Below are positions 19,535 to 48,315 of a stretch of DNA of 64,000 nt, piece by piece. Made by a program: the position numbers and the translations under genes. A model generated the notes under the pieces. The model had not been told where the DNA came from. It saw nothing but the letters and a program-made list of their open reading frames with translations, and ran no database searches. The stretch is from Prevotella sp. Lineage in GTDB: Bacteria; Bacteroidota; Bacteroidia; Bacteroidales; Bacteroidaceae. The stretch spans positions 1 through 64,000 of the forward strand of contig JAFRRN010000036.1 of assembly GCA_017428055.1 (NCBI GenBank). The letters are read 5' to 3'. Position 1 is the stretch's first letter. Each line of letters starts with the position of its first letter.

Positions 19535-20329
19535 CTATCGGTTAATCTCTATATCGCGCCTCACGTTGTCGCGGATTTTCTTCAAATAACCCTTCATGCC
19601 GTCGGCATCCTTGTTGTCGATGATTTCAAGGAGTTCCTTCAATTCCGTGCGGATTTGGCTCACTTGGTCGTGGGTATAGGGGTTGAAGAGGATTTCCTGC
19701 AAGAGGTAATCATCCTCGTTGAGCACTCCCTTGGCGATGCGCATGTGGCGTTTGAACGTTGTGCCGGGCGCATCCTGGTGCTTCATCACGGCGGCAAAAA
19801 CGAAAGTGGAGACGAAAGGAATGCTCAAAGAGTACGCCACCGTCTTGTCATGCTCGTCAAACGAATACTCATAGATGTGGAGCCCCAGGTTCTGATAGAG
19901 GTCCTTGAAGAACAGCCGCCCGATGAAATCGCCCTCATTGATGATGATGGCATTCTCCTCGGAGAGTTGGTTGAGGTTGGCAAACGTCGGTCCAAACATG
20001 GGGTGTGAAGAGGCATAGCGCATCCCCGTTGACTCGTAAAACTCCTTCAATCCCGTTTTCACCGACGAGATGTCGGTAATGATACAGTCTTTCGGGAGAT
20101 GGGGAATCACCTCCTTGAATGCGGGAATCGTGTATTTGACCGTCACGGCGTTGATGACCAACTCGGGCTTGAAGTCCCGTATCTCACCAAGTTCGGTAAA
20201 CCGTTGGCAGTTATAGGTGAAGCGCATCCGCTTGGGATCCTTCTCAAATACCGCCACTTCATGCTCGAAACTCAGCAGGTCGATGAAGAACGACCCCATC
20301 TTCCCTGCGCCCATCACTAATATTTTCAT
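19535..20329 (-). CDS. tyrA: Prephenate dehydrogenase
   Basis: 264 residues. The N-terminal Rossmann domain begins MKILVMGAGKMGSFF (GxGxxG) and the helical C-terminal domain carries the TyrA pattern. ITDISSVKTG, SSHPMFGPTF and the His in DEHDKTVAYSLSIPF are the family landmarks for prephenate and NAD(P)+ binding. It oxidatively decarboxylates prephenate to 4-hydroxyphenylpyruvate for tyrosine. It is the last gene of the pheA-aminotransferase-aroF/CM-tyrA operon, separated from the DAHP synthase by a palindromic repeat. There is no ACT domain, so feedback by Tyr is unlikely through this protein. Confidence 0.88.
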   Translation of the reverse strand: MKILVMGAGKMGSFFIDLLSFEHEVAVFEKDPKRMRFTYNCQRFTELGEIRDFKPELVINAVTVKYTIPAFKEVIPHLPKDCIITDISSVKTGLKEFYESTGMRYASSHPMFGPTFANLNQLSEENAIIINEGDFIGRLFFKDLYQNLGLHIYEYSFDEHDKTVAYSLSIPFVSTFVFAAVMKHQDAPGTTFKRHMRIAKGVLNEDDYLLQEILFNPYTHDQVSQIRTELKELLEIIDNKDADGMKGYLKKIRDNVRRDIEINR

Positions 20330-20344
20330 CCTTTTATATTATTA

Positions 20345-20452
20345 AAGGAGTGCAGGAGTGTCAAGGAGTTTAGGAGTTCAGACATTAGTCCTCTTTATGA
20401 AAAGGTAATGTCTGAACTCCTTGAACTCCTAAACTTCTGAACTCCCAAAATC
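20345..20452. repeat. Palindromic repeat, AGGAGTTCAGACA family, copy A
   Basis: AGGAGTTCAGACATTA (20372-20387) is the exact reverse complement of TAATGTCTGAACTCCT (20406-20421), flanked on both sides by degenerate GGAGT(T)T / AACTCC units. It sits between tyrA and the DAHP synthase gene, inside the operon. Related copies lie at 23914-23990 and in the 3' end of rnfB. Confidence 0.85.
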
Positions 20453-20459
20453 ATTCTCT

Positions 20460-21524
20460 CTACTGATTAACAATCTCTATCTGCTGCCTGACACTCTCCT
20501 CATGGATATGCTCAAACACTTGGGCGACAAAAGAGGGAGCCATGCCACACAACGACCCTTGCGCACCGCGCTTTTCGAGAATCTCGTTGTAACGATTGGT
20601 TTGTAACACCGTCATGTTGTGTTCCTTCTTATACTGGCCGATTTCGCGGCAGACGCGCATCCGTTTCGCCAACAAGTCCATCAACTGGTTATCCAATTCG
20701 TCTATCTGGTGGCGCAGCTGCGTGATGCCCTCCGTGGAGATCTTCTCGTCGCGGATGACCAACAGGCTGAGGATATAGTCCAACACATCGGGAGTGACCT
20801 GTTGCTTGGCATCGCTCCATGCCTTGTCGGGCTCGCAATGGCTCTCCACGATCAACCCGTCGAAGCCCAAGTCCATCGCCTGTTGGCAAAGCGGTGCCAC
20901 CAACTCACGACGGCCTCCGATGTGGCTGGGGTCACAAATGATGGGCAGTTCGGGATAACGTCGGCGCAACTCGATGGGAATCTGCCACATGGGAAGGTTG
21001 CGGTAAATCTTTTTGTCATACGAGGAGAACCCACGATGAATGGCTCCCAATCGCTTGACTCTCGCTTGATTGATTCGCTCCAAGGCACCAATCCACAACT
21101 CTATATCGGGATTGACGGGGTTTTTAACGAACACGGGAACGTCCACGCCCTGCAACGCATCAGCCAATGCCTGCACGGCAAACGGGTTGGCAGTCGTGCG
21201 GGCACCCACCCACAAGATGTCTATGCCATATTTCAAGGCTAACTCTACATGCTCGGGAGTGGCAACCTCCGTGGCTACCATCATCCCCGTCTCCTTCTTC
21301 ACCCGCTGCATCCAGGGCAGGGCTTTCTCGCCATTCCCCTCAAAACCGCCGGGCTTGGTGCGTGGTTTCCATACCCCTGCGCGGAAGTTATGGCAACCCT
21401 TCATCCTCAGTTCGAGGGCGGTTTTCATCACTTGCTCTTCCGTTTCCGCACTACAGGGTCCTGCGATGACGAAAGGGCGTTCATTGTCACTCGGCAATTT
21501 CAAAGGTTCTAATTCCAGTTCCAT
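20460..21524 (-). CDS. Bifunctional DAHP synthase / chorismate mutase
   Basis: 354 residues joining two shikimate-pathway activities. Residues 1-255 are a type I (KDPG-aldolase-like) DAHP synthase: FVIAGPCSAET, NFRAGVWKPRTKPGGFEG, KNPVNPDIELWIGALE, GAIHRGFSSYDK and CDPSHIGGRRE supply PEP, erythrose-4-phosphate and metal ligands. Residues 265-345 are an AroQ-type chorismate mutase helix bundle: LRHQIDELDNQLMDLLAKRMRVCREIGQYKKEH. The DAHP-synthase-CM fusion is common in Bacteroidota and lets prephenate act as a feedback signal in related enzymes. It starts 7 nt after the aminotransferase stop. Often annotated aroF or aroA(G)-type. Confidence 0.9.
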   Translation of the reverse strand: MELELEPLKLPSDNERPFVIAGPCSAETEEQVMKTALELRMKGCHNFRAGVWKPRTKPGGFEGNGEKALPWMQRVKKETGMMVATEVATPEHVELALKYGIDILWVGARTTANPFAVQALADALQGVDVPVFVKNPVNPDIELWIGALERINQARVKRLGAIHRGFSSYDKKIYRNLPMWQIPIELRRRYPELPIICDPSHIGGRRELVAPLCQQAMDLGFDGLIVESHCEPDKAWSDAKQQVTPDVLDYILSLLVIRDEKISTEGITQLRHQIDELDNQLMDLLAKRMRVCREIGQYKKEHNMTVLQTNRYNEILEKRGAQGSLCGMAPSFVAQVFEHIHEESVRQQIEIVNQ

Positions 21525-21531
21525 ATATCCT

Positions 21532-22698
21532 TTATTGTTTCATTGTTTTGATTCTGTTGAGAGCCTCGCATATCTTCTCCTCCTTCGCACATAGGCTGAT
21601 GCGGATATACCGTTCACCATTCGTGCCAAAGATAAACCCTGGCGTGATGAATACCCGCGCCTCATGCAGCACTCGCTCTGTCAAGTCCTCCACGTTATTA
21701 TATTTCTCGGGGATTTTTCCCCAGAGGAACATACCCACTTGATTGGGGTCAAACGTGCAGCCCAACACCTCCATGATTTGCTCCGCGATGTTCCTTCTGC
21801 GGCGGTACACTTGGATATTCGCCTCACGGTGCCATTCCAACGTGTTCGTGTTGTAAGCCTCGGCTGCCGCCAACTGTATGCCACGGAACGTACCGCTGTC
21901 GATGTTGCTCTTCACCTTCAATATCCACGAGATGAATTGGGCATTGGTAGCGCACAGCCCCACGCGCCAGCCAGGCATGTTATGGCTCTTCGACATCGAG
22001 TTGAACTCAATGCAACAGTCCTTCGCGCCCTCCACTTGGAGCAGCGACATGGGGTGTTCGTTGAGGATGAACGAATAGGGATTGTCATTGACGACAACAA
22101 TATCATGGGCCTTGGCAAAGGCAACGAGCCGCTCGTATGTCTCCATCCGCGCATTGCCACCCGTAGGCATATTGGGGTAGTTGGTCCACATCAACTTCAC
22201 GCCCGACAGGTCCATCTGTTCCAACTCGTCGAAGTCGGGTTGCCAACCGTTATCCTCGCGCAAATTGTAATTGACGATTGTCGCACCAAGGATTTTACTC
22301 AACGATGTGTAGGTGGGATAGCCGGGGTTGGGAACCAACACCTTGTCGCCAGGGTTGCAGAACGCCAACGTCACATGCAGAATGCCCTCCTTGCTACCAA
22401 TCAAGGGTTGTAACTCTGTCTTTGGGTCGAGTTCCACGCCATACCATTTTCGGTAAAAGTTCGCCATTGCCTGTCGCAATTCGGCTGTACCCATCGTCGG
22501 CTGGTAGCCATGGGCATCGGCGCGGCGGGCCACCTCGCAAAGTTTCTCCACCGTCTGCGGCGACGGCGGCATGTCGGGGCTGCCTATGGCGAGGCTGATG
22601 ATGTCTTTTCCCTCGGCATTGAGCCTTGCCACTTCCTTCAGTTTCCTACTGAAATAATATTCACTCACTAAGTTGAGCCTGTCTGCTGGTTGTATCAT
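21532..22698 (-). CDS. PLP-dependent aminotransferase (class I/II, probably aromatic)
   Basis: 388 residues of the fold-type I aminotransferase family. The PLP lysine lies in FNSMSKSHNMPGWRVG; NPGYPTY, the Asn/Pro segment TNYPNMPTGGNA, the Asp/Tyr pair in VVNDNPYSF and the substrate-binding Arg in RYIRISLC are present. Its position between prephenate dehydratase and DAHP synthase-CM implies a role in the final transamination of phenylpyruvate and hydroxyphenylpyruvate, although sequence alone also fits aspartate or LL-diaminopimelate-type relatives. It is separated from pheA by an 89-nt gap filled with CTTATAGGA-type repeats. Confidence 0.85.
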   Translation of the reverse strand: MIQPADRLNLVSEYYFSRKLKEVARLNAEGKDIISLAIGSPDMPPSPQTVEKLCEVARRADAHGYQPTMGTAELRQAMANFYRKWYGVELDPKTELQPLIGSKEGILHVTLAFCNPGDKVLVPNPGYPTYTSLSKILGATIVNYNLREDNGWQPDFDELEQMDLSGVKLMWTNYPNMPTGGNARMETYERLVAFAKAHDIVVVNDNPYSFILNEHPMSLLQVEGAKDCCIEFNSMSKSHNMPGWRVGLCATNAQFISWILKVKSNIDSGTFRGIQLAAAEAYNTNTLEWHREANIQVYRRRRNIAEQIMEVLGCTFDPNQVGMFLWGKIPEKYNNVEDLTERVLHEARVFITPGFIFGTNGERYIRISLCAKEEKICEALNRIKTMKQ

Positions 22699-22787: not shown

Positions 22788-23618
22788 TTATGCTCCTTTG
22801 TATTCTCCTAATATTTTAAGTTCACGAGTTAAAGGGATAATGGCATCTATGCTCTGCCTATATCTGATTAAATTATTGTAAGTAACATCCACATAGAACA
22901 AGTATTCCCATTCATGCCCTATCACGGGAAGTGACTGTATCTTTGTCAAGTTAATGCTATAGAACGACAAGATGGTAAGAACCTTCGAAAGGCTGCCCTC
23001 CTCATGGGGAACGAGAAACACCAGGCTCGACTTGTCTGCCTTGTCCAAAGGACGGAGGAAGTCGGCTTTCTGGGGGGTAGAGACCACAAGGAAGCGGGTG
23101 AAATTATGCTTGTTGTCCTCGATATGGTCCTCCAACACCTTCATGCCGTACATCTCCGCCGCCGAGGAATGGCAGATGGCAGCCCACCCACGGCATCGGT
23201 TCTTGCTGATATACTCCGCCGAGCCAGCCGTGTCTTCCGCCTCCACCGCCTTCAGGTCGGGATGGTTGACAAGGAATCCGCGGCATTGCATCAACGCCAC
23301 GGGATGTGAATGCACCTCCTGGATGGTGTCCCAGTCGTCCTCGGGTAGGCAACAGATGCAATGCTCAATATGCAACTTATGCTCCCCCACGATGGTTACT
23401 CCCGAGGCACGCAACAACTCATAGTTGTGCAATAGCGACCCCGCGATGGTGTTCTCTATGGCAAGCATCCCGATGACCGTCGGGTCGCGCTTGATATTCT
23501 CAAACACCTCCTCAAACGTGGAGCAACAAATGACCTGTACTTGCTCGCCTTCGTAATACTGGCGAGCGGCAATGTCGTGAAACGACCCAAGCATTCCTTG
23601 AATGGCAATTCTCTTCAT
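22788..23618 (-). CDS. pheA: Prephenate dehydratase with C-terminal ACT domain
   Basis: 276 residues from the ATG at 23618 (MKRIAIQGMLGSFHD). The catalytic domain (about 1-180) includes GSFHDIAA, LAIENTIAGSLLHNYELL and a TRF motif equivalent in NFTRFLVV. The C-terminal ACT domain (about 195-275, SSLVFLVPHEEGSLSKVLTIL... INLTKIQSLPV) contains the GAL/ESRP-like Phe-binding region in variant form, consistent with feedback inhibition by Phe. It converts prephenate to phenylpyruvate. An in-frame ATG at 23654 lies inside the terminator hairpin and is not the start. It is the first gene of the aromatic operon, directly behind the attenuator. Confidence 0.9.
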   Translation of the reverse strand: MKRIAIQGMLGSFHDIAARQYYEGEQVQVICCSTFEEVFENIKRDPTVIGMLAIENTIAGSLLHNYELLRASGVTIVGEHKLHIEHCICCLPEDDWDTIQEVHSHPVALMQCRGFLVNHPDLKAVEAEDTAGSAEYISKNRCRGWAAICHSSAAEMYGMKVLEDHIEDNKHNFTRFLVVSTPQKADFLRPLDKADKSSLVFLVPHEEGSLSKVLTILSFYSINLTKIQSLPVIGHEWEYLFYVDVTYNNLIRYRQSIDAIIPLTRELKILGEYKGA

Positions 23619-23633
23619 CTTCTCATCTATATG

Positions 23634-23664
23634 AAAAAACGGCCCTGCTTTCATGCGGGACCGT
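23634..23664 (-). terminator. Attenuator terminator of the pheA operon
   Basis: On the minus strand ACGGTCCCGC (23664-23655) pairs with GCAGGGCCGT (23648-23639), with a short loop, and runs into T6. It lies 33 nt after the leader-peptide stop codon and 16 nt before pheA, so it acts in the leader rather than at an operon end. Its 5' arm contains TCCCGC, complementary to GCGGGA inside the leader-peptide gene (23714-23709). Confidence 0.85.
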
Positions 23665-23696
23665 CTTGTATATTTTATCTCTCCATTGGTCGAAAA

Positions 23697-23774
23697 TTAC
23701 ACGCAACCTCCCGCTTCACAGTTCCCTGCAAAGTAAAAATAAAAGTAAAAGAAAGATGCGCTTATATGATTCAT
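23697..23774 (-). CDS. Phe/Tyr-rich leader peptide of the aromatic operon
   Basis: A 25-codon reading frame: MNHISASFFYFYFYF followed by AGNCEAGGCV and TAA. Eight consecutive residues are Phe or Tyr (FFYFYFYF: five Phe, three Tyr), which is what classical ribosome-stalling leader peptides look like. It starts about 25 nt downstream of the predicted transcription start (-7 box TACTTTTG, 23811-23804) and ends before an intrinsic terminator. GCGGGA, encoding part of Glu20-Ala21-Gly22, can pair with the 5' arm of that terminator, giving an antiterminator when a ribosome stalls on the Phe/Tyr codons. The reading is mine from the sequence; there is no expression evidence here. Confidence 0.85.
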   Translation of the reverse strand: MNHISASFFYFYFYFAGNCEAGGCV

Positions 23775-23803
23775 GTCTGTTACCAAAATCTCAAATTCGG
23801 TTG

Positions 23804-23811
23804 CAAAAGTA
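23804..23811 (-). promoter_or_regulatory. -7 element of the pheA operon
   Basis: TACTTTTG on the minus strand; start expected near 23799, giving a leader RNA of about 180 nt that contains the leader peptide and the attenuator. Confidence 0.65.
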
Positions 23812-23855
23812 CAAAGAATTATTGAATATCAGCATTAAAATGTAACTAAATGCCG

Positions 23856-23871
23856 CCATTTAACATTTTTT
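23856..23871. repeat. 16-mer shared with the large structured repeat
   Basis: CCATTTAACATTTTTT also occurs in both copies of the structured repeat (near 41456 and 60327). The rest of the element is not recognisable here, so this may be a remnant or a coincidence of AT-rich sequence. Confidence 0.4.
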
Positions 23872-23913
23872 GAGAGTTCATCAAGCAAAAGATTCCTATG
23901 GGTATTAGAAGTT

Positions 23914-23990
23914 GGTGAGTGCAGACATGGGCCTTTCTATAGGAAGACTATTGTCTGAACTCCTTGAAACTCCTGAACTCCTGCACTCCC
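23914..23990. repeat. Palindromic repeat, AGGAGTTCAGACA family, copy B
   Basis: Contains TTGTCTGAACTCCTTGAAACTCCTGAACTCCTGCACTCCC as iterated AACTCCT units, with a degenerate opposite arm GTGAGTGCAGACAT. It lies directly after the stop codon of the TPR gene and may serve as its 3' hairpin. Confidence 0.75.
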
Positions 23991-23993
23991 CAA

Positions 23994-24884
23994 TCACCCC
24001 AAACCGAATGGGTTGCTGTTGCGATAGGCCTGCTCCACCTGCCGTCCAATATCTTCTTTCCCCTCGGCGGAATATTCGCCAGTGACTTCATCCATCCCCT
24101 CTGGGTTGAGTTCCAGGTAACTCCGCATGTCCGCCTCGGCACCCTCCTTGTCGCCTATGGCGAGCCTCACCGCGCCCCGCTCCTTGAACGCGACGGCATG
24201 GAAGGGGTTGGCCTTGACCACCTGGTCATAATATTCGACGGCTTTCTCGTGGTTTCCCTTGCGCTCCTCGATGCGGGCGCTGAGCATCAGCACCTCCTCG
24301 ACACCCGAGGAATGGTCGTCAAGCCACTTGGCATCCTCGTCGGCACTCTCCACGTCGCCCATCTCCAAGAGCATCTCGCCACGCAACAGGCGGGCATCGC
24401 CATTGTCCTCGCGCATGGTGATGGCACGGGTGAGCATCGCCACGGCATTCACCAAGTCGCCCCTACCGATGCAAGCACGGGCATACAGCACCATGAGCAT
24501 GGGGTTATCCTTGTCTACCAGCATCGCCCGCTCGCACAGTTCCTCCATGCGGTCGTAGTCTTCGAGCATATAGGCGACATCGGTCATGCGCACCAACAAT
24601 TGCACATTCTCCGGCTCGGCCTCCGCCAACTGCTGCAATTGGTCGTAGGCTTCCTCTAATCGGTTGACATGAATCAACGCCTGGGAGAGGTAATCTCTCA
24701 CCTCCAAGTCGTCCTGCATCTCCAAGGCCCGCGTGAATAGTTCCACGGCATGCGCCGACTCGCCCAACCGCAATGCCTTCACGCCATCGTATTTCAACAC
24801 GTCGAAGTTTCTCGACTCCTCCTCTTTCTTCTTCTCCTCGGGTGTCTCCACCTTCCCGTTGAACAATGATTTCAAAAATCCCAT
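23994..24884 (-). CDS. Tetratricopeptide-repeat protein
   Basis: 296 residues. A short N-terminal segment MGFLKSLFNGKVETPEEKKKEEES with a charged stretch is followed from about residue 30 to 265 by six or more TPR-like helical pairs, e.g. GESAHAVELFTRALEMQDD, EEAYDQLQQLAEAEPEN, NHEKAVEYYDQVVKANPFHAVAFKERGAVRLAIGD and AEADMRSYLELNPEG. There is no signal peptide or clear membrane span, so it is likely cytoplasmic and a protein-protein scaffold. The C-terminus ends with a motif NSNPFGLG. It has its own promoter and is transcribed away from the OMP gene. No enzymatic domain is visible. Confidence 0.8.
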   Translation of the reverse strand: MGFLKSLFNGKVETPEEKKKEEESRNFDVLKYDGVKALRLGESAHAVELFTRALEMQDDLEVRDYLSQALIHVNRLEEAYDQLQQLAEAEPENVQLLVRMTDVAYMLEDYDRMEELCERAMLVDKDNPMLMVLYARACIGRGDLVNAVAMLTRAITMREDNGDARLLRGEMLLEMGDVESADEDAKWLDDHSSGVEEVLMLSARIEERKGNHEKAVEYYDQVVKANPFHAVAFKERGAVRLAIGDKEGAEADMRSYLELNPEGMDEVTGEYSAEGKEDIGRQVEQAYRNSNPFGLG

Positions 24885-47331: not shown

Positions 47332-48315
47332 ATGAACTTTATTACGATTGCGGTCATCGTTCTTGGAAGCATTGCATTGATAGCGGCTTTGATATTATAT
47401 GCCGTTTCCAAGCGATTTGCCGTGCAAGAAGACCCACGCATTGGCCAGGTGACGGAACTACTCCCCGGTGCCAACTGCGGCGGTTGTGGCTTCCCGGGAT
47501 GCGGCGGTATGGCCGACGCGCTGGTGAAGGCAGCCGACAAGGGGTCGTTGGAGGGCTTGAACTGTCCCGTAGGCGGTGCCTCCGTGATGGGTCAGGTCGC
47601 CGATTTGTTGGGTATGGCCGTTGCCAATACCGAGCCCATGGTTGCCGTGGTGCGGTGCAATGGCACATGCGAGTTACGCCCCCGTGTGGCAGAATACGAC
47701 GGGCTGCGCACTTGTAACGCCATGAATGCCTGTAGCACGGGCGAGACCGGGTGCGGCTATGGTTGTTTAGGCTGCGGCGACTGCGTGGCGGCTTGTACGT
47801 TTGGAGCCATCAAGATGGACGAGGAAACGGGGCTGCCCGTTGTCGACGAGGAGAAATGCACGTCGTGTGGGGCTTGCGTCAAGGCTTGCCCGCGCCACAT
47901 CATCGAACTACGAAAGAAAGGACCTAAGGGCCGTCGCCTATGGGTCAGCTGCGTGAACAAGGAAAAGGGAGCGGTTGCCAAGAAGGCTTGCGCCGCCGCT
48001 TGCATCGGATGCGGCAAATGCACGAAGGAATGCAAGTTTGAGGCGATCATCGTGGAAAACAACGTGGCTTACATCGACTGGAAGAAGTGTAAGATTTGCC
48101 GCAAGTGCGAGGCAGTATGCCCCACGGGTGCCATTAAGAGCATCAACTTCCCAAAAAGGGAGTCCAAGGAGTTAAGTAGTTCCAGGAGTTCAGACAATAG
48201 CGTTCAATCGAATGAAACTAATGTCCGTACTCCTAAACTCCCTGAAACCCCTGAACTCCTAACAACAAGGAAAACAACCCCTAAACCCCAAGCAAATGAA
48301 ACTACAAACATTTAA
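47332..48315 (+). CDS. rnfB: Rnf complex subunit RnfB (ferredoxin-type Fe-S protein)
   Basis: 327 residues. One N-terminal membrane helix (FITIAVIVLGSIALIAALILYAV), the [4Fe-4S] domain CGGCGFPGCGGMADAL... NCPVGG, then several 4Fe-4S ferredoxin motifs (CGYGCLGCGDCVAAC, CTSCGACVKACP, CIGCGKCTKECK, CKICRKCEAVCP). RnfB receives electrons from ferredoxin for the ion-pumping Rnf complex. After about residue 272 the sequence is low-complexity (SKELSSSRSSDNS... TPKLPETPELL), because this DNA is a palindromic repeat of the AGGAGTTCAGACA family. The stop overlaps rnfC by 20 nt. Confidence 0.9.
   Translation: MNFITIAVIVLGSIALIAALILYAVSKRFAVQEDPRIGQVTELLPGANCGGCGFPGCGGMADALVKAADKGSLEGLNCPVGGASVMGQVADLLGMAVANTEPMVAVVRCNGTCELRPRVAEYDGLRTCNAMNACSTGETGCGYGCLGCGDCVAACTFGAIKMDEETGLPVVDEEKCTSCGACVKACPRHIIELRKKGPKGRRLWVSCVNKEKGAVAKKACAAACIGCGKCTKECKFEAIIVENNVAYIDWKKCKICRKCEAVCPTGAIKSINFPKRESKELSSSRSSDNSVQSNETNVRTPKLPETPELLTTRKTTPKPQANETTNI
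48161..48262. repeat. Palindromic repeat, AGGAGTTCAGACA family, copy C (inside rnfB)
   Basis: CCAGGAGTTCAGACAATA on the left and TAATGTCCGTACTCCT... CTGAACTCCT on the right, with further GGAGTT/AACTCC units. It codes for the last about 50 residues of RnfB, which therefore lack conservation with typical RnfB tails. Copies A and B lie at 20345-20452 and 23914-23990. Confidence 0.85.

Follow-up and report, generated by a model that had tools for sequence, protein, structure and literature searches.

A predicted ribosome-mediated attenuator with phenylalanine and tyrosine control codons precedes the aromatic amino acid operon of Prevotella and many of its relatives

The pheA-aminotransferase-DAHP synthase/chorismate mutase-tyrA operon in the window, i.e. 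the whole stretch of 64,000 nucleotides of Prevotella sp. DNA that was analysed, is very probably controlled by a ribosome-mediated transcription attenuator, which would sense a shortage of charged tRNA-Phe and tRNA-Tyr. Read off the sequence of the minus strand, a -7 promoter box is followed by a leader open reading frame, an intrinsic terminator and pheA (Table 1). The original prediction had named exactly these elements, with a leader frame of 25 codons closed by TAA and a run of six T residues behind the terminator, and all of them were confirmed to the base. GCGGGA does lie in the leader frame after the phenylalanine and tyrosine codons, and it is complementary to TCCCGC in the 5' arm of the terminator. 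The interpretation of this arrangement as a Phe/Tyr stalling attenuator is supported at the level of comparative sequence analysis: leader, terminator and antiterminator pairing are kept far beyond Prevotella, and both the short frame and the pairing, on whose presence in relatives the original prediction had staked itself, were found to be conserved there.

In the scheme that we propose, a ribosome would wait at the codons for FFYFYFYF when charged tRNA is low, covering the RNA to about 9 nt beyond the last control codon. GCGGGA, located 15 nt past that codon in the window, would stay free beyond the stalled ribosome and pair with TCCCGC before the 3' arm of the terminator is made, whereupon RNA polymerase would read through. 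A ribosome that has moved on to the stop codon would sit on GCGGGA, the terminator would form and transcription would end near position 23634. If the RNA carries no ribosome, pairing of the N-terminal codons with the bases that follow GCGGGA, as a protector helix, may tip the balance towards termination.

Table 1. Features of the leader region and the downstream operon, in window coordinates
Feature	Position	Strand	Basis
-7 promoter box TACTTTTG (TAnnTTTG)	23804..23811	-	sequence
Leader ORF MNHISASFFYFYFYFAGNCEAGGCV, 25 codons + TAA (ATG 23774-23772, TAA 23699-23697)	23697..23774	-	sequence; kept in relatives
Control codons FFYFYFYF, predicted stall site	23730..23753	-	sequence; run composition in relatives
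Segment 1 CGCATCTTTC, 5' strand of putative protector helix	23751..23760	-	ribosome-free fold, pair counts, duplex test
Segment 2 GGAGGTTGCG, 3' strand of putative protector helix	23702..23711	-	ribosome-free fold, pair counts, duplex test
Antiterminator 5' arm GCGGGA	23709..23714	-	sequence; pair counts; phylum-wide pairing
Antiterminator 3' arm TCCCGC, common to terminator 5' arm	23655..23660	-	sequence; pair counts
Small hairpin P2, 5' strand GGTTG	23704..23708	-	pair counts
Small hairpin P2, 3' strand CGACC	23688..23692	-	pair counts
Predicted intrinsic terminator ACGGTCCCGC-ATGAAA-GCAGGGCCGT + T6 (ACGGTCCCGC 23664-23655, loop ATGAAA, GCAGGGCCGT 23648-23639, T6 23639-23634)	23634..23664	-	sequence; covarying pairs in relatives
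pheA, prephenate dehydratase (ATG at 23618)	22788..23618	-	best NCBIfam match PRK11898, 186.7 bits, cut-off of 219 not reached
Aminotransferase (LL-DAP aminotransferase-like)	21532..22698	-	best match PRK09276, below cut-off
DAHP synthase fused to chorismate mutase	20460..21524	-	both domains matched, below cut-off
tyrA, prephenate dehydrogenase	19535..20329	-	matches weak but consistent, below cut-off

The predicted terminator stem contains one C.A mismatch, has an energy of -15.6 kcal/mol in the window and leaves 15 nt between its T6 run and the pheA start codon. A second ATG, in frame with pheA, sits in the terminator loop (23652-23654), which is why the list of open reading frames begins pheA at 23654; gene finders may likewise add 12 codons to pheA and so extend it into the terminator. 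The operon proposed originally stands on NCBIfam matches below the cut-offs and on a gene order that is kept in relatives, since among Prevotellaceae loci with 3 kb of sequence pheA is followed by the aminotransferase and the DAHP synthase/chorismate mutase in 65/65 cases each and by tyrA in 63/65. With pheA, DAHP synthase/chorismate mutase and tyrA present, the amino acids predicted to be sensed are the products of the operon. The closest named relative is Prevotella sp. RGIG7572 (L039), whose PheA is 97% identical and whose leader is nearly identical. An interspersed repeat, GGAGTTCAGGAGTTTCAAGGAGTTCAG..., lies at approximately 23906-23999, 20347-20449 and 48158-48200, the first copy being upstream of the leader promoter and the second in the gap that separates the DAHP synthase gene from tyrA. 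The queried stretch matches 54 further places in the genome, of which 51 are this repeat, three of them within the window. Two tRNA genes are located on the minus strand at 16-98 and 148-221.

For comparison, pheA homologues were collected from 60 relatives (39 matched), 295 genomes of the order (139 matched), 296 genomes of the phylum (257 matched) and a collection of named genomes, from which 80 loci were kept. Upstream DNA was examined for 283 pheA loci, comprising all loci from the named genomes and part of the pheA matches found elsewhere, some of them chosen by us. L189 was excluded because its 76 bases are too short, L263 was counted with the class group instead of the phylum group, its genome G385 being listed as the same class, and three loci from other genera of the same family (L120, L122, L123) were tallied under other Bacteroidales. 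The Prevotellaceae set includes the window and holds some contigs twice among its 108 loci; 102 of its 107 leaders are distinct. Defined as an ATG-initiated frame of 8-60 codons with at least six Phe or Tyr codons within nine, a Phe/Tyr-rich leader precedes pheA in 246/283 loci, compared with 5/283 on the reverse strands and 0.2-1.5% in dinucleotide shuffles. It was found in 107/108 Prevotellaceae loci, 96/108 of other Bacteroidales, 38/42 of other orders of the class and 5/25 of other classes; by the same definition, no leader was apparent upstream of pheA in 12/108, 4/42 and 20/25 loci of the last three groups, respectively. Both phenylalanine and tyrosine occur in 262/268 runs. Residues within the run exchange between F and Y and sometimes with G, S or W, the F/Y content being kept, and the N- and C-termini of the peptides are variable.

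In 104/105 Prevotellaceae loci the 70 nt ahead of the leader ATG contain the promoter motif TAnnTTTG, at a distance of 26-48 nt (5-95% range). Five of the same loci have the motif between 140 and 210 nt upstream, a control stretch that is shortened in a few cases. The phylum starts translation without Shine-Dalgarno sequences, and Shine-Dalgarno-like 4-mers precede the leader ATG in 5/267 leaders compared with 6/267 at a control position. Tryptophan codons were observed in 21/268 runs (e.g. FFGFWFYFFY; L214, L226, L227 and others), and such leaders possibly provide three-way aromatic sensing where the operon contains DAHP synthase. Two Phe/Tyr leaders in series precede pheA in 22/246 leader-bearing loci, each with its own terminator by our criterion in 18/22; the window has a single leader; the tandem loci are L128, L129, L133, L141, L142, L178 and 16 more, and their arm sequences mostly differ.

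Downstream of the leaders, a terminator was found in 251/268 cases. Alignment A1, comprising the window and 54/61 references, revealed covariation of the terminator pairs in Prevotellaceae (18 two-sided cells). In the same alignment 91.9% of the cells in the antiterminator columns are paired, with five two-sided cells, as against at most 46.4% paired and up to seven two-sided cells in slid controls. A1 omits L047, L049, L056, L067, L070, L081 and L088, the core being changed in L047, L049 and L056, and its pair counts therefore lean towards the structures. Column counting within Prevotellaceae is low-powered since the arms hardly vary, so that wider sets were taken. In these, the stretch after the control codons was shuffled 100 times and paired with the 5' arm of the terminator for 241 of the 251 leaders with a terminator, ten being dropped because they offer too little room. 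The native pairing was equalled by at most five of 100 shuffles in 218/241 leaders and by none in 141. By group, 93/100 Prevotellaceae, 86/97 other Bacteroidales, 34/39 leaders from other orders and 5/5 from other classes fall into the former category. The pairing of the window itself is unexceptional, 16/100 shuffles being as good. Its GCGGGA/TCCCGC helix has 6 bp compared with a median of 11 in Prevotellaceae, for which reason read-through may be weaker in the window; many relatives have longer pairing, up to GTGAAGCGGGA/TCCCGCTTCAC and beyond.

The two arms also change together between lineages, for example as GCGGGA/TCCCGC, GGTGGGA/TCCCACC, GGCAGGA/TCCTGCC, CGAGACC/GGTCTCG and TGAGAACT/AGTTCTCA. 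A total of 152 distinct contiguous helices was recorded, a number that includes the same helix at several cut lengths and does not represent independent changes. For 220/237 leaders, pairing with the own terminator arm is better than the average over foreign arms. The own arm beats 95% of sampled foreign arms in only 83/237 leaders, probably because many arms carry a common CCCG core; when leaders from outside Prevotellaceae are compared among themselves, the figure is 71/141.

The geometry of the leaders is consistent with the proposed role of the ribosome. The median distance from the last Phe/Tyr codon to the start of the antiterminator helix is 10, 11, 10 and 9 nt for Prevotellaceae, other Bacteroidales, other orders and other classes, respectively, with 5-95% ranges of 8-15, 7-16, 7-14 and 6-17 nt; most helices start at 7-16 nt. 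A ribosome usually gives a toeprint about 15 nt away from the codon in its P site. When it waits at the last control codon, its edge should accordingly lie about 9 nt past this codon, and the helix begins where this edge is expected. A ribosome stalled in this position leaves 5 bp or more of the antiterminator helix free in 232/238 leaders. Once it has reached the stop codon, it covers 4 nt or more in 196/238, and five or more arm bases are still free in 74/238. When the bases under the footprint were masked and the RNA was folded up to, but without, the terminator 3' arm, the antiterminator reached a probability above 0.5 in 235/238 leaders with the stalled ribosome and in 33/238 with the ribosome at the stop codon; for the window, the same fold gave probabilities of 1.0 and 0.0, respectively. 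Once the complete transcript is allowed to equilibrate around the stalled ribosome, a probability above 0.5 is reached by the terminator in 180/238 leaders and by the antiterminator in 61; in the window, the terminator has a probability of 0.96. Because equilibrium favours the terminator, the model requires a kinetic switch that depends on the order of synthesis, a dependence that has been held for other attenuators too.

Codon content could be compared with gene content at 40 loci picked from our lists, six with Phe-only and 32 with mixed runs; two were set aside, L351 without a leader and unlinked, and L369 with its leader outside the stretch. Phenylalanine without tyrosine is found in 6/268 runs, which belong to three families (G247/G063, G053 and G073/G312/G252). 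At none of these six loci was an aminotransferase, a DAHP synthase or tyrA detected beside pheA in the stretch examined, which for one of them (L336) comprises 2.3 kb of downstream DNA. All 32 mixed runs precede operons with DAHP synthase, and tyrA lies within the stretch in 28/32. For five of the six genomes with Phe-only runs, tyrA is located on a different contig; the search of the sixth did not find it. A Phe/Tyr leader lies upstream of the split-off tyrA in only two of these five loci. In G053, an operon of tyrA and DAHP synthase/chorismate mutase, in which aroB-, aroD- and aroA-like genes were also recognized by eye, has its own tyrosine-rich leader, MNNTFGYYAFYYYFFYNN, with a terminator, and in G073 MAPVHTYYAWSFFFFYFQNKRGHAV (five Phe, three Tyr and one Trp) lies ahead of tyrA, likewise with a terminator. 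The stretches examined around tyrA in G312 (approximately 0.2 kb of upstream DNA), G063 and G247 showed no Phe/Tyr leader; tyrA is possibly not the first gene there. In the genus of the window, an RNA model (R1) built from A1, some rows of which come from genomes that were also searched with it, detected the element in 27/27 genomes with pheA and in one of nine without; at E values up to 1, its one site in the window's genome is the pheA leader. The single hit in a genome in which no pheA was found (G029, L328 on G029:C62) is a leader with terminator that directly precedes aminotransferase-DAHP synthase/chorismate mutase-tyrA. On the whole, the content of the runs fits that of the operons and argues for codon-by-codon sensing of charged tRNAs, predicted to serve the whole operon.

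The C-terminal sequence CEAGGCV of the leader peptide had been singled out in the original prediction as an extra oddity. The ending itself is real; its peculiarity is mostly a matter of RNA constraint. Core bases (GAAGCG or similar) are contained in the leader frame in 96 of 102 distinct Prevotellaceae leaders, mostly as a CEAGSCV-like ending, and they are read in another frame or interrupted by a stop in five (L011, L028, L033, L057 and L105); L056 has a leader without the core. In many other Bacteroidales the frame stops 9-12 nt beyond the run, either at the arm or immediately ahead of it. A role of CEAGGCV as a peptide was considered and rejected because reading frames shift over the conserved bases. 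Since the bases are kept while the frame shifts, the ending is for the most part a by-product, or protein shadow, of the RNA pairing segments.

These observations bear on two readings in which the peptide itself is what matters. TnaC, for which tryptophan is the ligand, is a short leader peptide of this kind. It provides the precedent for an arrest peptide (excerpted account in PMC8429421), and the leader described here is also short and its aromatic run conserved, so that a nascent chain together with free phenylalanine or tyrosine as ligand could be imagined to stall the ribosome and operate the same RNA switch. We regard this as very improbable: F and Y exchange freely, the termini vary and only F/Y content is kept, Phe-only runs accompany pheA genes that are set apart from the other genes, and ligand-induced arrest would amount to induction by excess, the wrong sign for a biosynthetic operon. 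It is scarcely credible that the run is part of a real small membrane protein whose gene is ended by the terminator, with pheA transcribed from its own promoter. The stretch is indeed aromatic and hydrophobic and the terminator lies directly 3' of the frame, but the five leaders with other frames or early stops over conserved RNA, the conserved antiterminator pairing and a codon content that tracks operon content all speak against a selected protein, and a separate pheA promoter would have to fit into the 15 nt between T6 and ATG.

What the RNA does in the absence of translation is a separate matter, on which attenuation could be real with read-through as its default state. The small hairpin P2, rather than the protector helix, would then be the alternative structure and would stack on the antiterminator. 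For this speaks that 78.9% of the P2 cells are paired in A1 with seven two-sided changes, a number reached by 5/500 shuffles, and that in partial transcripts without a ribosome the antiterminator exceeds 0.5 in 186/238 leaders as well as in the window. Most of the aligned relatives have AAGTTG/CAACTT as P2; in the lineage of the window, an A-U pair has been replaced by G-C. Against it, the protector columns are 75.5% paired, at most 5/100 shuffles of segment 1 form as good a duplex in 98/241 leaders, and the full window transcript without a ribosome gives one protector pair a probability of 0.88 compared with 0.09 for P2. A read-through default appears doubtful to us. The two-sided count of the protector (8) was itself reached in 37/500 shuffles, sliding the partners by +2 yielded 18 two-sided cells at 61.3% paired, and in the duplex test for the window 19/100 (segment 1) and 7/100 (segment 2) shuffles were as good. 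The by-eye reading of the protector helix as certain was dropped, as slid controls are richer in two-sided changes; we consider both the protector helix and hairpin P2 partly supported.

Beyond the window, it is likely that Prevotella and the other members of its class share an ancient aromatic attenuator, the code of which has been retuned to the genes it serves, with phenylalanine plus tyrosine and in some cases tryptophan codons before joint operons, phenylalanine codons before a lone pheA and tyrosine-rich runs before a split-off tyrA, sometimes in tandem. Since such a switch needs a ribosome close behind RNA polymerase, tight coupling of transcription and translation is predicted throughout the phylum. 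A family conserved across orders could serve as a natural reporter of this coupling in major gut bacteria, its sensor code being readable from the sequence and comparable with operon content, and truncated 5' RNAs before pheA should appear in transcriptome maps of Bacteroidota. The same genome contains a further attenuator-like leader 183-97 nt upstream of leuA (L295 on G000:C2), consisting of a promoter box, the Ile/Leu/Val-rich MTPIQQDILGIILQIRLQRAVGSVGVYL and a terminator, with CGGAAGTG complementary to CACTTCCG of the terminator 5' arm. Of 18 leuA loci examined, seven (L295, L382, L383, L385, L389, L390 and L391) combine a leader with a terminator and a partner of the GAAGTG type. Attenuation is not used for every amino acid operon, because in this genome no His leader was found directly before hisG (L173) and no Trp leader directly before trpE or the trpB-like gene ahead of trpE (L294).

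Ribosome-mediated attenuation is textbook knowledge in Proteobacteria, where the pheL attenuator of E. coli consists of a short Phe-rich leader frame, a terminator and an antiterminator with pheA downstream. The Prevotella element is alike in all four respects. It differs from pheL in its mixed Phe/Tyr run, in an operon that adds DAHP synthase and tyrA, in the phylum in which it occurs and in the rarity of Shine-Dalgarno-like 4-mers. Rfam Phe_leader (RF01859) is the top Rfam match and covers 23771-23634, nearly everything between the leader start and the end of the T-run, but at 19.2 bits (E value 0.68) the match stays below the gathering score of 55 and the element is not a member. Neither the search at gathering scores nor that of 23560-23860 at E values up to 10 yielded a family to which it belongs or a T-box. 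Of the PheL-type scheme put forward originally, the classical kind of mechanism is upheld, with the refinement that in this phylum the leaders belong to a separate family. The multivalent ilvGMEDA and thr attenuators of Proteobacteria likewise combine codons for several amino acids in one leader, the codons there being branched-chain and threonine codons.

In the literature that was searched, we found the family undescribed except for a hint from Flavobacterium; an earlier prediction for Bacteroidetes is possible (Lopatovskaya et al., 2010, doi 10.1134/S0026893310010164). The excerpted transcriptome account of Flavobacterium psychrophilum reports structured 5' regions before pheA and hisG and a conserved pheA 5' element, and mentions leader-peptide attenuation before amino acid operons; those excerpts give no leader sequence, Phe/Tyr code, pairing scheme or extent beyond Flavobacteriaceae (PMC9723704). 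Small open reading frames reminiscent of leader peptides are noted in excerpts of a B. thetaiotaomicron map (PMC7366714). For Salmonella mgtCBR, excerpts describe tandem attenuators with two leader frames before one operon (PMC3641672), similar to the serial leaders in relatives of Prevotella, where, in distinction from mgtCBR and from the single leader of the window, both are Phe/Tyr leaders. As predicted from these comparisons, the mechanism is of the classical ribosome-mediated kind, and the leaders form a family of their own outside Rfam Phe_leader.
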